Below, in pieces: positions 1,585 through 35,976 of a stretch of 35,976 bases of DNA (positions are counted from its first letter, which is position 1; each line of letters starts with the position of its first letter). The notes under the pieces were generated by a model. That model was not told the origin of the DNA, ran no database searches, and worked only from the letters and a program-made list of their open reading frames with translations. The DNA is taken from the IMG/VR virus record IMGVR_UViG_3300037493_000931, positions 1 through 35,976 of that record. The stretch is one strand, 5' to 3'. The translations under genes and the position numbers were made by a program. This stretch comes from a virus.

Positions 1585-1612
1585 AAGTTACCATAACACT
1601 CAAGATTGTCTA
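1585..1612 (-). promoter_or_regulatory. Candidate leftward early promoter with repeated TGTAGACA
   Basis: On the minus strand TAGACA (1607-1612) is followed after 16 bp by TAACTT (1585-1590), a weak sigma-70-like pair 50 bp upstream of the first early gene. The octamer TGTAGACA is repeated 15 bp further upstream (1622-1629), which could be an operator or a second -35. The location is right, but the -10 match is poor. Confidence 0.35.
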
Positions 1613-1745
1613 CATTTATTTTGTCTACATCTCATTTATTTTCATTTCCCTATATTCTATGCAGGATGCAGGGGCGAGACTTATTGCCAGTTACCAGCAA
1701 TAAGCGGGTTATTCGGGGTGAATTAGGTAAATAATAGGATATGCC

Positions 1746-1820
1746 GGGGATATATATGGGATATATATGGGATATATATATGGGATATATATATGAGGGA
1801 TATATGGATGATATATGGAT
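1746..1820. repeat. AT-rich tandem repeats (GGGATATATAT units)
   Basis: Four consecutive units of GGGATATATAT(AT), 11-13 bp long, start at about 1747, 1758, 1769 and 1782. Two degenerate units follow (GAGGGATATATGG, ATGATATATGGAT). The A/T-alternating cores would melt easily, as expected of a DNA-unwinding element. Frames through the block encode only Ile/Tyr/His-rich repeats and are not genes. Confidence 0.85.
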
Positions 1821-2120
1821 CAGGGAATATCTATTCACTCTCCCACAAATATATCGCCAACAATCGCAATCACCAGTCAATGCTCTCTGGCTATCCGCTT
1901 AAGGCATTGGTAGGGTGCTTTCTTTCTTTGATAAGTATAATCAGCATTTCCACAACCCGTCAAGGAAAAAAAAATCTTTTTTTACTAGCGGCCAACTATC
2001 CCTTTGCTGGCAATGAAATTCCGTGTCATGTACTGCAATCGCTCTTGTTGGAGATTTGTAGACAATTTACAATTATTCAACGATAATCGGTATTTACAAA
2101 GTAAACATCGAGGAGATTGC

Positions 2121-2172
2121 GCCGATGCCGCGTGCCGATGCCGCGTGCCGATGCTGGTGACGTGCCGGTGAC
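2121..2172. repeat. 13-bp tandem repeats GCCGATGCCGCGT
   Basis: Two perfect 13-mers (2121-2133, 2134-2146), a third diverged copy (2147-2159, GCCGATGCTGGTG) and a fourth degenerate one abut each other. They share the 13-bp pitch of the iterons immediately downstream, which suggests a helically ordered protein array. Confidence 0.8.
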
Positions 2173-2177
2173 ATGGC

Positions 2178-2366
2178 AAGCGAGTGTTTTAAGCGTACGT
2201 TTTAATGATGCGATGCGGTGCCAGGCGATAGGTAAGCGAGTGTTTCAAGCGTACGTTTCAAGCGTACGTTTCAAGCGGCGAGATCCAATACCAGGGCATG
2301 GTGAGCGAGTGTTTTAAGCGAGTGTTTTAAGCGAGTGTTTCAAGCGAGTGTTTCAAGCGGGTGCGG
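2178..2366. repeat. Iteron array, 12-bp units on 13-bp pitch
   Basis: Nine full units occur in three clusters. AAGCGAGTGTTT is at 2178, 2234, 2303 (first base G), 2316, 2329 and 2342. AAGCGTACGTTT is at 2191, 2247 and 2260. Partial units lie at 2273 and 2355. Within clusters each 12-mer is separated by a single C or T, giving a 13-bp period. The second type has a CGTACG palindrome at its centre. Such ordered direct repeats typically bind an initiator or repressor. Confidence 0.85.
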
Positions 2367-2450
2367 GGGGAGGGGGTTGTGCGCGTGTATACTTGTAAAT
2401 ATCTATCGGATTCCCCGCCCCTTTAAAAAATGCCCAACTGCGAATTATTC

Positions 2451-2478
2451 TTGACAGTTCCCACTGAAATGATACAAG
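2451..2478 (+). promoter_or_regulatory. Candidate late promoter, near-leaderless
   Basis: A perfect TTGACA (2451-2456) is followed after 16 bp by TACAAG (2473-2478). The predicted start point would lie at or next to the ATG at 2484, so the first late mRNA might be nearly leaderless. The -35 is strong and the -10 is weak. Confidence 0.45.
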
Positions 2479-17234: not shown

Positions 17235-17489
17235 ATGGAAAAGCGATTTACAAAGATAGTCACCAATCCTGCTACGGGACGCAAGAGAACTGTGAAGTTT
17301 GGGCAAGCTGGCAAGGCAGCAGATGGCGGTGATCGTATTCGTCCAGGCACGGCCAAAGGGTCAAGTTATTGCGCTAGAAGTTATGGTATCAAAAAACGCT
17401 TGCCAGAAGCGCAGCAAAATGATCCTAATACTCCCAACAATTTAAGTCGAAAAAAATGGAAATGCTCGGGCAAAATCAGCAGGAAATAA
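17235..17489 (+). CDS. Small conserved basic phage protein (84 aa)
   Basis: The 84-residue protein has TNPATGRKRTVKFGQ at its start, then a PGTAKGSSYCARSYGI segment and PNTPNNLSRKKWKC near the end. This combination is a common small phage protein of unknown role located between portal and capsid genes. Its 3' end overlaps the GIY-YIG endonuclease gene by 34 bp in another frame, and the final residues (SGKISRK) may have been altered by that insertion. Confidence 0.7.
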   Translation: MEKRFTKIVTNPATGRKRTVKFGQAGKAADGGDRIRPGTAKGSSYCARSYGIKKRLPEAQQNDPNTPNNLSRKKWKCSGKISRK

Positions 17490-18130
17490 GAAATTCTGGA
17501 ATTTACAGAATCACCTGTATTGCTAATAACCATTTTTATTATGGAAGTAGCATAAATTTAAAGTCTAGGATTAAGAATCATCTTAGTAAACTTAGGGCTA
17601 AATGTCATAGAAACAAAAGGCTTCAGCGTATATTTGATAAATATGGAGAGTCCTCACTGACATTTGAGGTGGTTAAATATTGCGATCCAAGTTTTATTCT
17701 TGATGAAGAACAAGAATATCTTGATGAGTATATTTCAAATGAAAATTGCGTAAATTTTTGCAAGAGTGCCAAGTCACCAATGGCTGGAGTGAAATTCTCG
17801 GTTACACATAAGAAAAAAATATCAGAATCTCAAGCTAGAAACAAATACACTTTTTATTATGAGTGTGGTAAAATTGAATTATTTGACAGTCTAAAGATAG
17901 CTGGAGACAGATTTGGGGTAAAAAGCAATATTGTTTCAAGATGGTTCAAAAGAAAGAACCTTGGCAGGAGTCATGGAATTTTAAGAACATCAAATATTAT
18001 TAAGGCGGAGAAATCTGGAGATCAGGATATTGTTCTTCTTCCTTGGGATTATAAAAAAGAATCTTGGATGCTAGCTGGCGCAACAAGCAAAACTGGTTAC
18101 TATCGAAGCAAAAGGAAATCAATGAAATAA
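17456..18130 (+). CDS. GIY-YIG homing endonuclease (224 aa)
   Basis: The catalytic domain is at residues about 14-95: GIY at 15-17, YYG at 28-30, the Arg of LKSRIKNH near 38, and the conserved acidic DEEQEYLDEY near 83-92. A C-terminal helix-turn-helix-like DNA-binding part follows (SLKIAGDRFGVKSNIVSRWF, about 143-162). The gene is clearly more AT-rich than its neighbours and overlaps the preceding gene, as expected of a recently inserted selfish endonuclease. The last residues (SWMLAGATSKTGYYRSKRK) look unlike the enzyme and may derive from the tail of the interrupted neighbour. Confidence 0.85.
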   Translation: MEMLGQNQQEIRNSGIYRITCIANNHFYYGSSINLKSRIKNHLSKLRAKCHRNKRLQRIFDKYGESSLTFEVVKYCDPSFILDEEQEYLDEYISNENCVNFCKSAKSPMAGVKFSVTHKKKISESQARNKYTFYYECGKIELFDSLKIAGDRFGVKSNIVSRWFKRKNLGRSHGILRTSNIIKAEKSGDQDIVLLPWDYKKESWMLAGATSKTGYYRSKRKSMK

Positions 18131-24846: not shown

Positions 24847-25647
24847 ATGAAGCCAATAAAAAGCAAGTCAAAGATAATCGTTCTTCTTTCGGATTTGCAC
24901 ATTGGCTCAGTCGTCGGTCTGTGGCCGTCTGATTTCATCTCCAACGAAGGGTTCCCTATAGGTCAGAACGCATTCCAGAAATGGCTGTGGAATTGCTGGG
25001 ATGATTGCCATCAATGGATTGCCAAGACCGTTGGTGACGAGCCGTATGAGTTGGTAATCAATGGCGACTTGGTTGAAGGCATTCACCATCGCACAACGCA
25101 AGTAATGAGCGCGGATGTCAGCGACCAATCTACCGCCGTCATTCAGATCCTCCAGCCGATAACAGGCAAAGCTGCCGGCATTCACATCATCAAAGGAACG
25201 GAGTGCCACACGAGGAATGATGAGATTCGCATTGGCAAAGTTCTAGGCGCGTCGAAGAACCCTGAGAACGGACAGAACGCATGGGACAACCTGGACATTG
25301 AAATGAATGGAACGCTTATCAACTTCGCGCATCACATTTCAGCAACGTCCCGCCCGTATCTGGAAGCAGGGGCGCATAGCATCGCACTAGGAAGTATTAC
25401 ACACTCCCGCGCAAGAGTGGGCAAACGTATTCCATCTGTAATCTGTCGGGCGCATCGTCATCGACATGGAATCTGGACAGACGGCAACCAAGCATCGCTC
25501 ATCACAGGCGCGTGGCAGGGGCTTACCCGTCATGGCTACAAGGTTGTCCCCGACGCTATCACAGAGCCTTCCTGCATCATCCTCGACGCAAGGACAACGG
25601 ACAAGGGTGACCTACCACTATTTCACCAACGCAAATACATACCATAA
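24847..25647 (+). CDS. Calcineurin-like metallophosphoesterase (266 aa)
   Basis: The two-metal phosphoesterase motifs are in order: SDLHIGS (15-21), NGDLVEG (about 73-79), GTECHT in place of the usual GNHD (about 118), a His pair in FAHH (about 163), and AHRHRHG (about 201-207). The GTECH variant is known in phage members. Substrate cannot be told; such enzymes process phosphodiesters in nucleotides or nucleic acids. It directly abuts the lysis gene and ends overlapping the next start (TAATG). Confidence 0.8.
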   Translation: MKPIKSKSKIIVLLSDLHIGSVVGLWPSDFISNEGFPIGQNAFQKWLWNCWDDCHQWIAKTVGDEPYELVINGDLVEGIHHRTTQVMSADVSDQSTAVIQILQPITGKAAGIHIIKGTECHTRNDEIRIGKVLGASKNPENGQNAWDNLDIEMNGTLINFAHHISATSRPYLEAGAHSIALGSITHSRARVGKRIPSVICRAHRHRHGIWTDGNQASLITGAWQGLTRHGYKVVPDAITEPSCIILDARTTDKGDLPLFHQRKYIP

Positions 25648-25886
25648 TGGCAAAGAGCATCCCAAAAGTAAACGGCATGGACTGGATTATTGACCAGCTT
25701 AAAGAAGTCACTCCTGACCCAGATGAGTTCAGCGCACAGATGGTTGCTGAAAAACTCAATCAAAGATTTGGTGTTATTCACTGCATGATTCAAAGGAAGG
25801 TTGCTAAAGGAGAGCTTACTAAGCGCAAGATACTCGTCAATGGACGACATGTAAATTACTACAAGCGGGTCATTTCTTCCCCCTAA
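25647..25886 (+). CDS. Small winged-helix-like protein, last rightward gene (79 aa)
   Basis: A 79-residue basic protein whose central part (FSAQMVAEKLNQRFGVIHCMIQRKV...GELTKR) reads as a helix-turn-helix with a following beta wing. It may regulate late transcription. Its 3' end overlaps the convergent helicase-loader gene by 17 bp, so the two operons collide here without a visible terminator. Confidence 0.65.
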   Translation: MAKSIPKVNGMDWIIDQLKEVTPDPDEFSAQMVAEKLNQRFGVIHCMIQRKVAKGELTKRKILVNGRHVNYYKRVISSP

Positions 25887-26451
25887 ACGATTCCCAGTTA
25901 AAAGCTAACGCTTCGCCATTCTCATTAAACCTATCCATCACAGCGGGGGATAGAGTGGATGATAGCTTCTCAAATGTATAGTTTGAAATCAGGATTGTTG
26001 GCATGTTGTCTAAATACCTAGCGTCGATGATGGCTGTGAGCTTGTCGTCCTCGAATTTCGTCTCTCCCCTGACCTGCACTTCGTCAATCACCAGCAGGGC
26101 AGCATCGCAGTAATCTTTGATAACTTCCCTTTCTGACTTCTCAGACCCCTCGGTGTAAGTGGATTTGATTGTTGAGAAAAGGTTCATTGCTGTGGTGTAA
26201 ACCATCGGACGCTTCCTGTAAGTGGTCGTCCATCCTGGCTCCCCCGTGCTGATGTTCGGTCGCTTGGACTTGTGCGCTCTAGCAACCTCCCATGCCATCC
26301 GCGTCTTGCCTGTGCCATATCCCCCGTGGAGGATCGTAATGCCCCCAGAATCGGTTGCGGCAAGTGCTTTGGCGTAGTTTGCCAACCATCCTTCACCTGT
26401 CGCTGGTGGGGCATCCTCGTAGCGTTTTGGGAATCCTCGTAGTGGGTTCAT
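25870..26451 (-). CDS. DnaC/IstB-like AAA+ helicase loader (193 aa)
   Basis: Walker A GGYGTGKT is at residues 43-50, Walker B LLVIDE at 119-124, a sensor-1 Asn in PTILISNY near 156-163, and an arginine-finger region SPAVMDRF near 169-176. The 193-residue length and motif spacing match DnaC-type loaders. It would load the host replicative helicase at the phage origin, since the window encodes no helicase. It is the last gene of the leftward operon and is coupled to the preceding gene by ATGA. Confidence 0.85.
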   Translation of the reverse strand: MNPLRGFPKRYEDAPPATGEGWLANYAKALAATDSGGITILHGGYGTGKTRMAWEVARAHKSKRPNISTGEPGWTTTYRKRPMVYTTAMNLFSTIKSTYTEGSEKSEREVIKDYCDAALLVIDEVQVRGETKFEDDKLTAIIDARYLDNMPTILISNYTFEKLSSTLSPAVMDRFNENGEALAFNWESFRGKK

Positions 26452-26726
26452 AGTTGATTGATGATTTGTGAAACTGTGTAAGTGTGTGCTTTGTTAAGCA
26501 GGTGGGAGTAGTCAACGGGAAGTGTCGGTTCGATATTCTCTGAATCAGCGGTGCGGATAAGCATTTCAGCCGCCTGGCTTACGCTGCATTTCTCACGCTG
26601 TGCAAGCCGACGAATACGCTGGAATGTTTCTTGCTCCAATCGGAGGACGATAATTGCTTTCACCTCCCACGGTTTCTTCCTCCTACGCCCTGTGACGATA
26701 TTGAATCCCTTGTCGCTAGCTCTCAT
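26448..26726 (-). CDS. Ribbon-helix-helix-like DNA-binding protein (92 aa)
   Basis: Residues about 22-60 (VKAIIVLRLEQETFQRIRRL...KCSVSQAAEMLIRTA) fit a ribbon-helix-helix fold: a beta strand, a helix, and a second helix starting SVSQAAE. A basic N-terminus (TGRRRKKPW) adds DNA affinity. It could be an autorepressor of the early operon or an origin-binding accessory. ATGA overlaps join it to both neighbours. Confidence 0.65.
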   Translation of the reverse strand: MRASDKGFNIVTGRRRKKPWEVKAIIVLRLEQETFQRIRRLAQREKCSVSQAAEMLIRTADSENIEPTLPVDYSHLLNKAHTYTVSQIINQL

Positions 26727-26926
26727 GACAATTTATATTGAGCAAAGGTTTTTCCGTTACGGGTTATCGGCGTTGTGCGAATATCCACCCCATCCTTGCG
26801 GAGTTCGGCTATTCTTGCAGCAAGGCGCATACATCCCCATTTCTCAAGAGCTTGCATTGGTGTTAGTTTGTAGCCCCGTAGGAGCCATGCGTGTATCTTT
26901 TTAGTTGTGCTTGGTTGTTTATTCAT
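26723..26926 (-). CDS. Small helix-turn-helix phage protein (67 aa)
   Basis: The 67-residue protein shows the pattern IHAWLLRGYKLTPMQALEKWGCMRLAARIAELRKDG followed by a short wing. It belongs to a common group of small phage winged-helix proteins. It is the first gene downstream of the cassette array on this strand, and its start is 19 bp from the outermost attC-like box. Confidence 0.7.
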   Translation of the reverse strand: MNKQPSTTKKIHAWLLRGYKLTPMQALEKWGCMRLAARIAELRKDGVDIRTTPITRNGKTFAQYKLS

Positions 26927-29307: not shown

Positions 29308-30054
29308 TTAGCCCAAGAGAAAGGCGGTTTGCGTGGTGATCGGTGCGTTGATTTCATAGCGTTGGCTTTGTCCTTTCGGGTATGGTTCCACAGGGTATTT
29401 GAGAGCCGCCCTGATTGCGGACTGTTGCTTTTTCGTTCCCACCGCGAAGACATAGCGATGCTTTCGCGGGCGGTCGTCCAGATAGAAGTCGTCACCGTAT
29501 TTCTCGCGCATCCATTCAGCGCGGTTGGCTTGGCCTCGGCTTTCGTCTGCCACGGTTGCGCCGTGGAGATGTTCGCGGCCTTTGATTTTCCAGTCTGTGC
29601 GCTTCGCGCTCAGTCCGGTGTAGATGAAGTTCGTTGCTTGGTAGATGTAGCCGACATGCCCTTGTGCCGTGTCTGCGTAGCTTACCACCACGGACGGTTT
29701 CGGCAGCATCCTCAGCGACCTTCCCACCAGTAGGCTTGCCACGTTTGGGGAGTTCTCGCAGCACAGGCGATTCAGTTCCAGCACATGCTCTGCCCATTCG
29801 TCGCCGCACAGTCCGCCTCTCAGCGGTGCGCTTGCTGGCGTGCCGTATGTCACCACCCCGACAAGCTCCGTGCCCCGCCACGCTCCGAAGGCGTAGGAGA
29901 TCGGACACATGCGCTTTGCATAGTGCCGCATTAGCAAGAACGGTTCGGCCTCCTTCGCTGGTATCGCAGCCACCAAAAGAGGGCTAACAAGACGCTGCAT
30001 GGAATGCCGCGCAGCGTCTTTGGCGAGTTCGGGAGTCTGTGATGCGGCATCCAT
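29308..30054 (-). CDS. Mom-like DNA modification protein, cassette 9 (248 aa)
   Basis: The core carries VVSYADTAQGH (residues 123-133) followed by VGYIYQATNFIYTG (134-147), the most typical block of the phage Mu Mom family. Mom is a GNAT-fold enzyme that adds a methylcarbamoyl group to adenine and protects phage DNA from restriction. Upstream parts (ISYAFGAWRGTELVGVVTYG, LELNRLCCENSPN) also fit. I chose the ATG at 30054, within site 9, five bases after the preceding stop; the first 25 residues are attC-encoded. The stop codon lies in the box GTTAGCC at 29307. A small zinc-ribbon gene lies two genes upstream. Confidence 0.75.
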   Translation of the reverse strand: MDAASQTPELAKDAARHSMQRLVSPLLVAAIPAKEAEPFLLMRHYAKRMCPISYAFGAWRGTELVGVVTYGTPASAPLRGGLCGDEWAEHVLELNRLCCENSPNVASLLVGRSLRMLPKPSVVVSYADTAQGHVGYIYQATNFIYTGLSAKRTDWKIKGREHLHGATVADESRGQANRAEWMREKYGDDFYLDDRPRKHRYVFAVGTKKQQSAIRAALKYPVEPYPKGQSQRYEINAPITTQTAFLLG

Positions 30055-30071
30055 GAGCTTATGCGTTAGCG
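29982..30071 (+). other. attC-like site 9 (90 bp)
   Basis: The outer boxes GGCTAAC (29982-29988) and GTTAGCG (30065-30071) pair over six bases. Arms CATGGAATGCCGC (29998-30010) and GCGGCATCCATG (30044-30055) pair over 12 bp with one extra A. GGCTAAC exactly complements the cassette start GTTAGCC at 29307. Confidence 0.85.
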
Positions 30072-30358
30072 GAAGAAATCCACCCGGCGAAAAACGCTTC
30101 GAGCCGGGCCGGGAATAGTCCGCCAGATTCGTTTGTCCCAAGGATGGCATCGTCTAGGCAGTCGAAGTGTATTTCTTCTTTTGCCCACTCCTCGTATGCG
30201 GCTTTTGCCTGCATCGCGGTTTCGAAGTTGTAGCCGTAGGGTTTCCATCGTTCTTCGAGCTGTTCCAGTCCGGAGACATCCTCCAAGACCGCTAACCAGC
30301 GGATGCGTTGTTGTGTATGAAATGCGGTTTCGTGCATGTCTAGGCGTTTGTTGTGCAT
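30059..30358 (-). CDS. Cassette 10 hypothetical protein (99 aa)
   Basis: The 99-residue frame starts in the right-hand site (MHNKRLDMHETAFH, nearly repeated in the leader at 29261) and ends in site 9 as ...ISSANA. The body is acidic and helical (GLEQLEERWKPYGYNFETAM, AYEEWAKEEIHFD). Not recognised; the body length suggests a genuine domain. Confidence 0.6.
   Translation of the reverse strand: MHNKRLDMHETAFHTQQRIRWLAVLEDVSGLEQLEERWKPYGYNFETAMQAKAAYEEWAKEEIHFDCLDDAILGTNESGGLFPARLEAFFAGWISSANA
30290..30352 (+). other. attC-like site 10, right end of array (63 bp)
   Basis: The outer boxes are CGCTAAC (30290-30296) and GTTTGTT (30346-30352). The inner hairpin TGTATGAAA / TTTCGTGCA pairs with wobbles. 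CGCTAAC exactly complements the cassette start GTTAGCG at 30065. Beyond it the ordinary phage operon resumes. Confidence 0.65.
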
Positions 30359-35170: not shown

Positions 35171-35488
35171 TTATTGGTTTTGGTTTCGTTGTTCAAGAAT
35201 AATTTGTGAGTATTTTTGCAGTATCATCTTCAATCGTTCACGGGTTGGATCGCAGTATTGCAAGCGTTCGTGAATCTTCCGCCTGGCATAGAATGCGGCG
35301 GTGTGGTGAGTTCTCCCCACCGCTTCGCACGATGCCTGGAGTGAATGCGCCTCCGCCCATAGCGTCATGACAATCTGACGCGCTAGGGCTTCAGCGAATG
35401 TTTTTCGCTTGCCGGTAATTGCCTCGGGTGTGGTTCCCATCACCTCCGCAGTCGCCGCAAGCAACGCGAGTTTGTCGTCAATTAGCAC
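35171..35488 (-). CDS. Free-standing DnaA domain IV-like DNA-binding protein (105 aa)
   Basis: Residues about 14-80 match the DNA-binding C-terminal domain of DnaA: VMGTTPEAITGKRKT, ALARQIVMTLWAEA and the box-reading GRTHHTAAFYARRKI (58-72) in the place of GRDHSTV...RKI. The AAA+ part of DnaA is absent. The GTG start follows an AGGGGGCAAGA purine stretch and overlaps the previous gene by 11 bp. It may recognise DnaA-type boxes to steer host replication or bind the phage origin. Confidence 0.75.
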   Translation of the reverse strand: MLIDDKLALLAATAEVMGTTPEAITGKRKTFAEALARQIVMTLWAEAHSLQASCEAVGRTHHTAAFYARRKIHERLQYCDPTRERLKMILQKYSQIILEQRNQNQ

Positions 35489-35681: not shown

Positions 35682-35976
35682 GGCTTCAGTGGTTCGATTG
35701 TTGCTTTCGCGATAACGGCTCTGCATTGTTCAAATAAAGACTGGGCGAATCCATAACGATCCTCCCCTTCTCGTTTGTTGCCAGCATCGACAAATTCAGC
35801 GGTTGCGAGGAGTCCTGTCAATGCCATCAACAGTTCTGGTGCCGCTGCTCTCAAACGAGCGTTTGCCGACTCCTCTCTTGCAGACATCTCGGAAGATGAG
35901 TCGCTGAAACCTCTGAACAGATTGCAGATTGTGGCGATGGCATCGTTGTCGGTCTGTATTGTCAACACCCTTCGAG
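35678..35976 (-). CDS. 3' part of the junction-spanning hypothetical protein
   Basis: This is the continuation of the frame that starts at 215 (see 1-215); together they encode about 120 residues. This part has an Ala/Leu/Arg-rich helix (ARLRAAAPELLMALTGLL) and a segment EDRYGFAQSLFEQC, a pattern common in small phage proteins of unknown role. Read alone it would need a GTG at 35968. Confidence 0.75.
   Translation of the reverse strand, partial: RRVLTIQTDNDAIATICNLFRGFSDSSSEMSAREESANARLRAAAPELLMALTGLLATAEFVDAGNKREGEDRYGFAQSLFEQCRAVIAKATIEPLKP
35826..35976. repeat. Right copy of 151-bp terminal direct repeat
   Basis: Same sequence as 1-151 except for c at 35850 against a at 25. Confidence 0.95.

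Follow-up and report, generated by a model that had tools for sequence, protein, structure and literature searches.

Tandem palindromic iterons between the early and late genes of an environmental phage: a candidate replication origin with a lone DnaA domain IV

The iterons of phage λ, each an imperfect inverted repeat, are bound by dimers of the O protein, and an AT tract is needed for unwinding (PMC7466680). The phage locus described here resembles the λ origin in several respects: its tandem iterons have an imperfect inverted-repeat structure, there is AT-rich DNA in the region, and the phage encodes a DnaB loader (assigned to its family by sequence) that would act on a host helicase. It is unlike the λ origin in that the repeats are intergenic rather than inside the initiator gene, and the unit is 12 bp on a 13-bp pitch instead of 19 bp. 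Moreover, no match to an O-like initiator was found among the scanned proteins, a lone DnaA domain IV being encoded instead, and about 500 bp separate the iterons from the conserved AT-rich segment on their left, whereas the AT tract of λ abuts the iterons. The likeness to oriC is also partial. The phage encodes a DnaA domain-IV fold and a DnaC-like loader, and a few relatives have TTATNCACA boxes beside the iterons. In contrast to oriC, the iterons are not of DnaA-box sequence, the gap holds no cluster of TTWTNCACA-type boxes, and the phage protein lacks both the N-terminal domains and an AAA+ domain III linked to its domain IV. Iteron plasmids of the P1 and RK2 type resemble the present locus in having directly repeated iterons close to AT-rich and GC-rich segments; unlike these, the present locus has a palindromic unit, and neither a Rep protein nor any plasmid or prophage sign was found. 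No account of such a system turned up in our search of the open-access literature.

We propose that the gap between the early and late genes is probably the replication origin of a λ-like, host-helicase-dependent phage, with replication starting here. If so, a widespread group of environmental phages would have a compact origin in which λ-like palindromic iterons are found together with a DnaC-like loader and a DnaA DNA-binding domain that stands alone. Such an origin would allow testing of how little DnaA suffices to start replication, and would give an origin model for phages without a known initiator.

The early/late gap and its iterons

The window (the whole stretch of DNA analysed, 35,976 nucleotides) is from a freshwater-type phage. 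Its ends overlap imperfectly over 151 bp (positions 1-151 against 35826-35976, 150/151 matching), which indicates a circular or terminally redundant genome with a unique length of 35,825 bases; four full-length relatives have exact end overlaps of 87-127 bp. Early genes run leftward on the minus strand from 1536 and late genes run on the plus strand from about 2484, so that the repeats sit, as an earlier note on this DNA had it, in the gap between diverging units. Blastn of the gap against annotated phages gave no match, and an Rfam search returned nothing. Relatives were collected by scans with the DnaA domain-IV protein (29, then 38 loci), an 816-aa late protein (80 of 358) and the loader (59 loci). 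From these, 40 non-redundant early/late gaps were used for gap comparison and nine full genomes for gene content. The gene order is kept: late genes, gap, and an early operon with the DnaA domain-IV gene upstream of Erf and exonuclease genes. A candidate early promoter, TTGACG-18-TATACT, reads leftward on the minus strand at 1934..1963, from a promoter scan in which promoter-like matches were no commoner than in shuffles. The candidate late promoter, TTGACA with a weak -10 on the plus strand at 2451..2478, was placed by eye and was not returned by the scan. Relatives keep both the TTGAC(A/G) at the early-promoter position (TGTCAAG on the plus strand) and the TTGACA of the late one.

All three repeat families that had been described between 1746 and 2366 are present. 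Nine 12-mer iterons form three sub-arrays of two, three and four units on an exact 13-bp pitch, at 2178..2202, 2234..2277 and 2303..2359 on the plus strand. Six are of the AAGCGAGTGTTT type (2178, 2234, 2303 with G first, 2316, 2329 and 2342) and three are AAGCGTACGTTT (2191, 2247 and 2260). A whole-window scan with AARCGNNYGNTT gave 17 matches, most of them at the iteron cluster, against 1.46 +/- 1.37 in shuffles (largest 6), and TTYAAGCG gave 12 against an expected 3.2 +/- 1.8. The iteron repeats are real and highly non-random.

The profile from the 40 gaps defines the unit as AARCGNNYGWTT, a 12-bp imperfect palindrome. Compared with its own reverse complement, the position weight matrix of isolated units gives a correlation of 0.84 (null 0.00 +/- 0.25, largest 0.87 of 2000). 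When only the left half serves as seed, the right half comes back (Y 0.91, G 0.83, W 0.89, T 0.83, T 0.80), and units also occur singly; the unit is therefore a 12-bp imperfect palindrome and not an 8-bp word plus spacer. The window arrays start with GGY-AAGCG or GGT-GAGCG. A trailing half unit, TTTC-AAGCGG, closes sub-arrays 2 and 3, which fits the 12-bp unit boundary. The GAGT and GTAC types of the earlier note are present, and the two binding modes it thought possible are not needed, since both types are states of one degenerate palindrome. The palindromic unit, which recalls the λ iterons and by that analogy favors an origin, suggests a dimeric binder. A dimeric regulator would also suit it, and here the main rival of the origin reading enters: that the iterons are an operator array on which a dimer of a phage ribbon-helix-helix (RHH) or winged-helix protein (described below) governs the early/late switch. 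We regard this as rather unlikely. The iterons do lie between two divergent promoters, leftward early and rightward late. However, the arrays, of up to nine sites, end about 90 bp short of the late -35 and begin over 200 bp away from the early promoter, and so overlap neither core promoter.

The unit is found at the early/late gap in nearly all of the 40 gaps, where tandem TTYAARCG-type repeats on a 13-bp pitch stand directly ahead of a G-tract. Seven of the nine full genomes pass the cluster threshold, each time with this as the sole cluster in the genome; the unit is inverted in one of the remaining two and degenerate in the other. Copy number varies, down to one or two iterons in some relatives. 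This scarcity argues against an origin, and the freedom of copy number and orientation to vary also argues against an operator. Related phages without repeats at this place would have spoken against the original proposal, and in this family the cluster is kept at the divergence, one per complete genome, always in phages with the DnaA domain IV and loader. Perfect DnaA-type boxes, TTATYCACA, stand just left of the iterons in the gaps of L022, L023, L028 and L045, numbering 5 against 0.7 expected, and are absent from the window. In the window, TTATNCACA with at most one mismatch is not enriched, and none lies in the gap up to the late start.

The AT-rich block at 1747-1818 (plus strand), built of GGGATATATAT/ATATATATGGGAT units on an 11-13 bp pitch, has the lowest stability of any 60-bp stretch within about 1.2 kb. 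The (GGGATATATAT)n block was found in the window only, and the relatives read have purine arrays there, GGAAGGAA or AGAGAATCAAGG; given this lack of conservation, its proposed part as an unwinding-type element is not supported. What is conserved lies left of the range first described: on the plus strand at 1605..1650, the 9-mer TTGTCTACA occurs twice, at 1606 and 1621, ahead of an AT-rich stretch. With 1.38 copies expected, TTGTCNACA occurs 36 times across 24/40 gap regions; most copies lie at -550 to -770 relative to the G-tract and have AT-rich DNA after them, and in many relatives this AT-rich stretch coincides with the stability minimum. TTGTCGACAA is a palindrome. The segment at 1605-1650 could be an unwinding element, or else serve the early unit as a leader or operator. 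Its conservation near the iterons would favor an origin, whereas its distance of ~500 bp from them, with the early promoter in between, argues against one. The GC-rich 13-bp tandem repeat GCCGATGCCGCGT (x2.6, 100% match) lies at 2121..2154 on the plus strand. As a conserved element it was rejected: relatives often have a GC-rich array here, and its sequence differs from phage to phage.

The G-tract and the sister clade

Directly after the iterons comes the G-tract GGGGGGAGGGGG (2365..2376, plus strand), which starts a bipartite element whose A-box, AAAAAAT, is at 2425-2431. The element consists of AGGGGGGGAGGGGGT and then an AAAAWTTT/AAAAAA box, mostly 44-50 nt on (window 2365-2431; L137-L215; L040:23095). 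It occurs in many unrelated phage contigs, in at least 120 stretches, often directly ahead of terminase large-subunit genes and sometimes of primosomal or O-like genes, and is possibly a packaging or priming site. No paper on it was found in the literature, and a G-tract/C-tract hairpin is not more stable than shuffles (z +1.48). Two contigs, L146 and L154, both stop exactly 25 nt past the G-tract at ...GCAT, resembling a physical DNA end.

That the element adjoins the iterons, is common to unrelated phages and often precedes terminase genes might suggest that the iterons belong to a pac site read by the small terminase. This is very improbable. Left ends of the family contigs are not clumped at the gap, the end overlaps being of the circular type, and a sister clade has the terminase and G-tract without the iteron cluster, on which ground we rejected the pac reading. 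Phage C75C1 of that clade (TerL identity 41%) keeps the G-tract at the early/late boundary, encodes an O/DnaD-like initiator as well as a DnaB helicase of its own, and has no iterons and no homologue of the DnaA domain IV, loader, RHH or winged-helix proteins. The G-tract is present in 37 of the 80 sister-clade loci, and an iteron cluster in 0/37 of these; DnaB matches were found in several of the loci that extend far enough into the early region. Both clades have terS, terL and portal genes, and their small terminases are homologous (25% identity, E 5e-7). The iterons thus travel with the replication and regulation module rather than with packaging, and the G-tract stands outside the iteron system. 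The absence of iterons where DnaB and an O/DnaD-like initiator are present suggests an origin. Two points weigh against that use of the contrast: it is effectively one evolutionary event, not 37 independent ones, and the sister clade also lacks the candidate regulators, so that the missing RHH and winged-helix proteins of iteron-less C75C1 fit an operator as well.

Phage proteins and candidate iteron binders

The stand-alone DnaA domain IV-like protein (105 aa; 35171..35488, minus strand) matches PF08299 at E 1.2e-7 and 32.1 bits, above the curated cut-off of 31.5. Its profile matches 3pvp and 1j1v, both DNA-binding domains of DnaA (E about 1e-5), and it consists of domain IV only. The DnaC/IstB-like AAA+ helicase loader lies at 25870..26451 on the minus strand (phrog_50 E 2.9e-40; PDB 6qel DnaC E 6.7e-14). 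Both had been recognized in the earlier note, as had the lack of a helicase or initiator ATPase: among the window proteins scanned, which did not include every late ORF, no helicase, primase, polymerase or full-length initiator ATPase was found. Every family member with its early region covered has the lone DnaA domain IV (PF08299) and the DnaC-like loader. A distant group, with about 57% loader identity, also has both, and its full genome has iterons as well. DnaA domain-IV relatives were found neither in phages nor in 84,980 bacterial and archaeal genomes, and no prophage was seen.

Two further candidate iteron binders are encoded on the minus strand, an Arc-like RHH protein (26448..26726), with weak family matches, and a winged-helix HTH_39 protein (26723..26926; PF14090 E 7.7e-10). 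Among the genes compared, these two, the DnaA domain IV, the loader, small proteins at 25647 and 32358, Erf and the exonuclease are present in 9/9 full genomes. The TreK-like protein at 1309-1536 (PF24229 E 6e-14), once suggested as a repeat binder, is present in only 3/9, and we rejected it because of this patchy presence. The TreK-like family takes its name from Staphylococcus phage terminal repeats. In our alignment, the DnaA domain-IV helix variants (RTHHTAAFYAR, RIHHTSAVYAR, KNSHQTVMHGR, RTCHSTVIWAR and RISHGVAMYAR) keep the histidine equivalent to E. coli H434 while neighboring residues change. In contrast, the winged-helix motif KWGCMRLSARI is nearly invariant among relatives. With a DnaA domain-IV recognition helix that varies, iterons that stay constant and a better conserved winged-helix protein, the DnaA domain IV, winged-helix and RHH proteins are all best taken as candidate repeat readers. 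The varying recognition residues count against the origin reading; a nearly invariant winged-helix recognition region, matching the invariance of the iterons, and the presence of the RHH and winged-helix proteins in every full genome speak for the operator.

Proposed replication start at the gap

Under the origin reading, the steps that we infer are as follows. A phage DNA-binding protein (the DnaA domain IV, winged-helix 26723 or RHH 26448) would cover the tandem iterons with their 12-bp palindromic unit, and the DnaC-like AAA+ loader would be recruited to them. Host DnaB would be loaded where DNA close by is melted, the most plausible places being the AT-rich stretch beside TTGTCNACA and DNA that the leftward early promoter opens. 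The non-random cluster, the same unit at the same place in relatives, and the DnaA domain IV and loader in every full genome point to such an origin. The origin proposed in the earlier note is supported in part: as to the cluster, conserved with the module and absent when this is replaced, and not as to the GGGATATATAT-type unwinding block, the 1309 binder and the two modes. A more specific version, in which domain IV and an AAA+ DnaC/DnaA-like ATPase, as two proteins, jointly do at the phage iterons the job of DnaA at oriC, and the loader would double as the melting ATPase, seems to us quite improbable.

The same repeats might also serve both replication and the timing of early/late transcription. 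This draws on the facts given above for the operator and on λ, where replication initiation and promoter activity are coupled (PMC3985674); we consider it improbable indeed.

In the nine genomes, the minimum of the detrended cumulative GC skew falls 0.3-6.1 kb from the late gene start toward the early genes, to its left; on the late side, the maximum is found about 13-16 kb away. The skew thus turns roughly here, in favor of the origin reading. This check, which the earlier note had named, is compatible with an origin in the region and is imprecise, the minimum being kilobases off in 8/9 genomes, and it is confounded because the direction of transcription switches at the same place.

Two other genes of the window may be mentioned. 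A Mom-family protein (29308-30150; PF25680, E 1e-39), not detected in the eight other full genomes compared, likely has a role in DNA modification. A GIY-YIG type homing endonuclease is encoded among the late genes, at 17456-18130.
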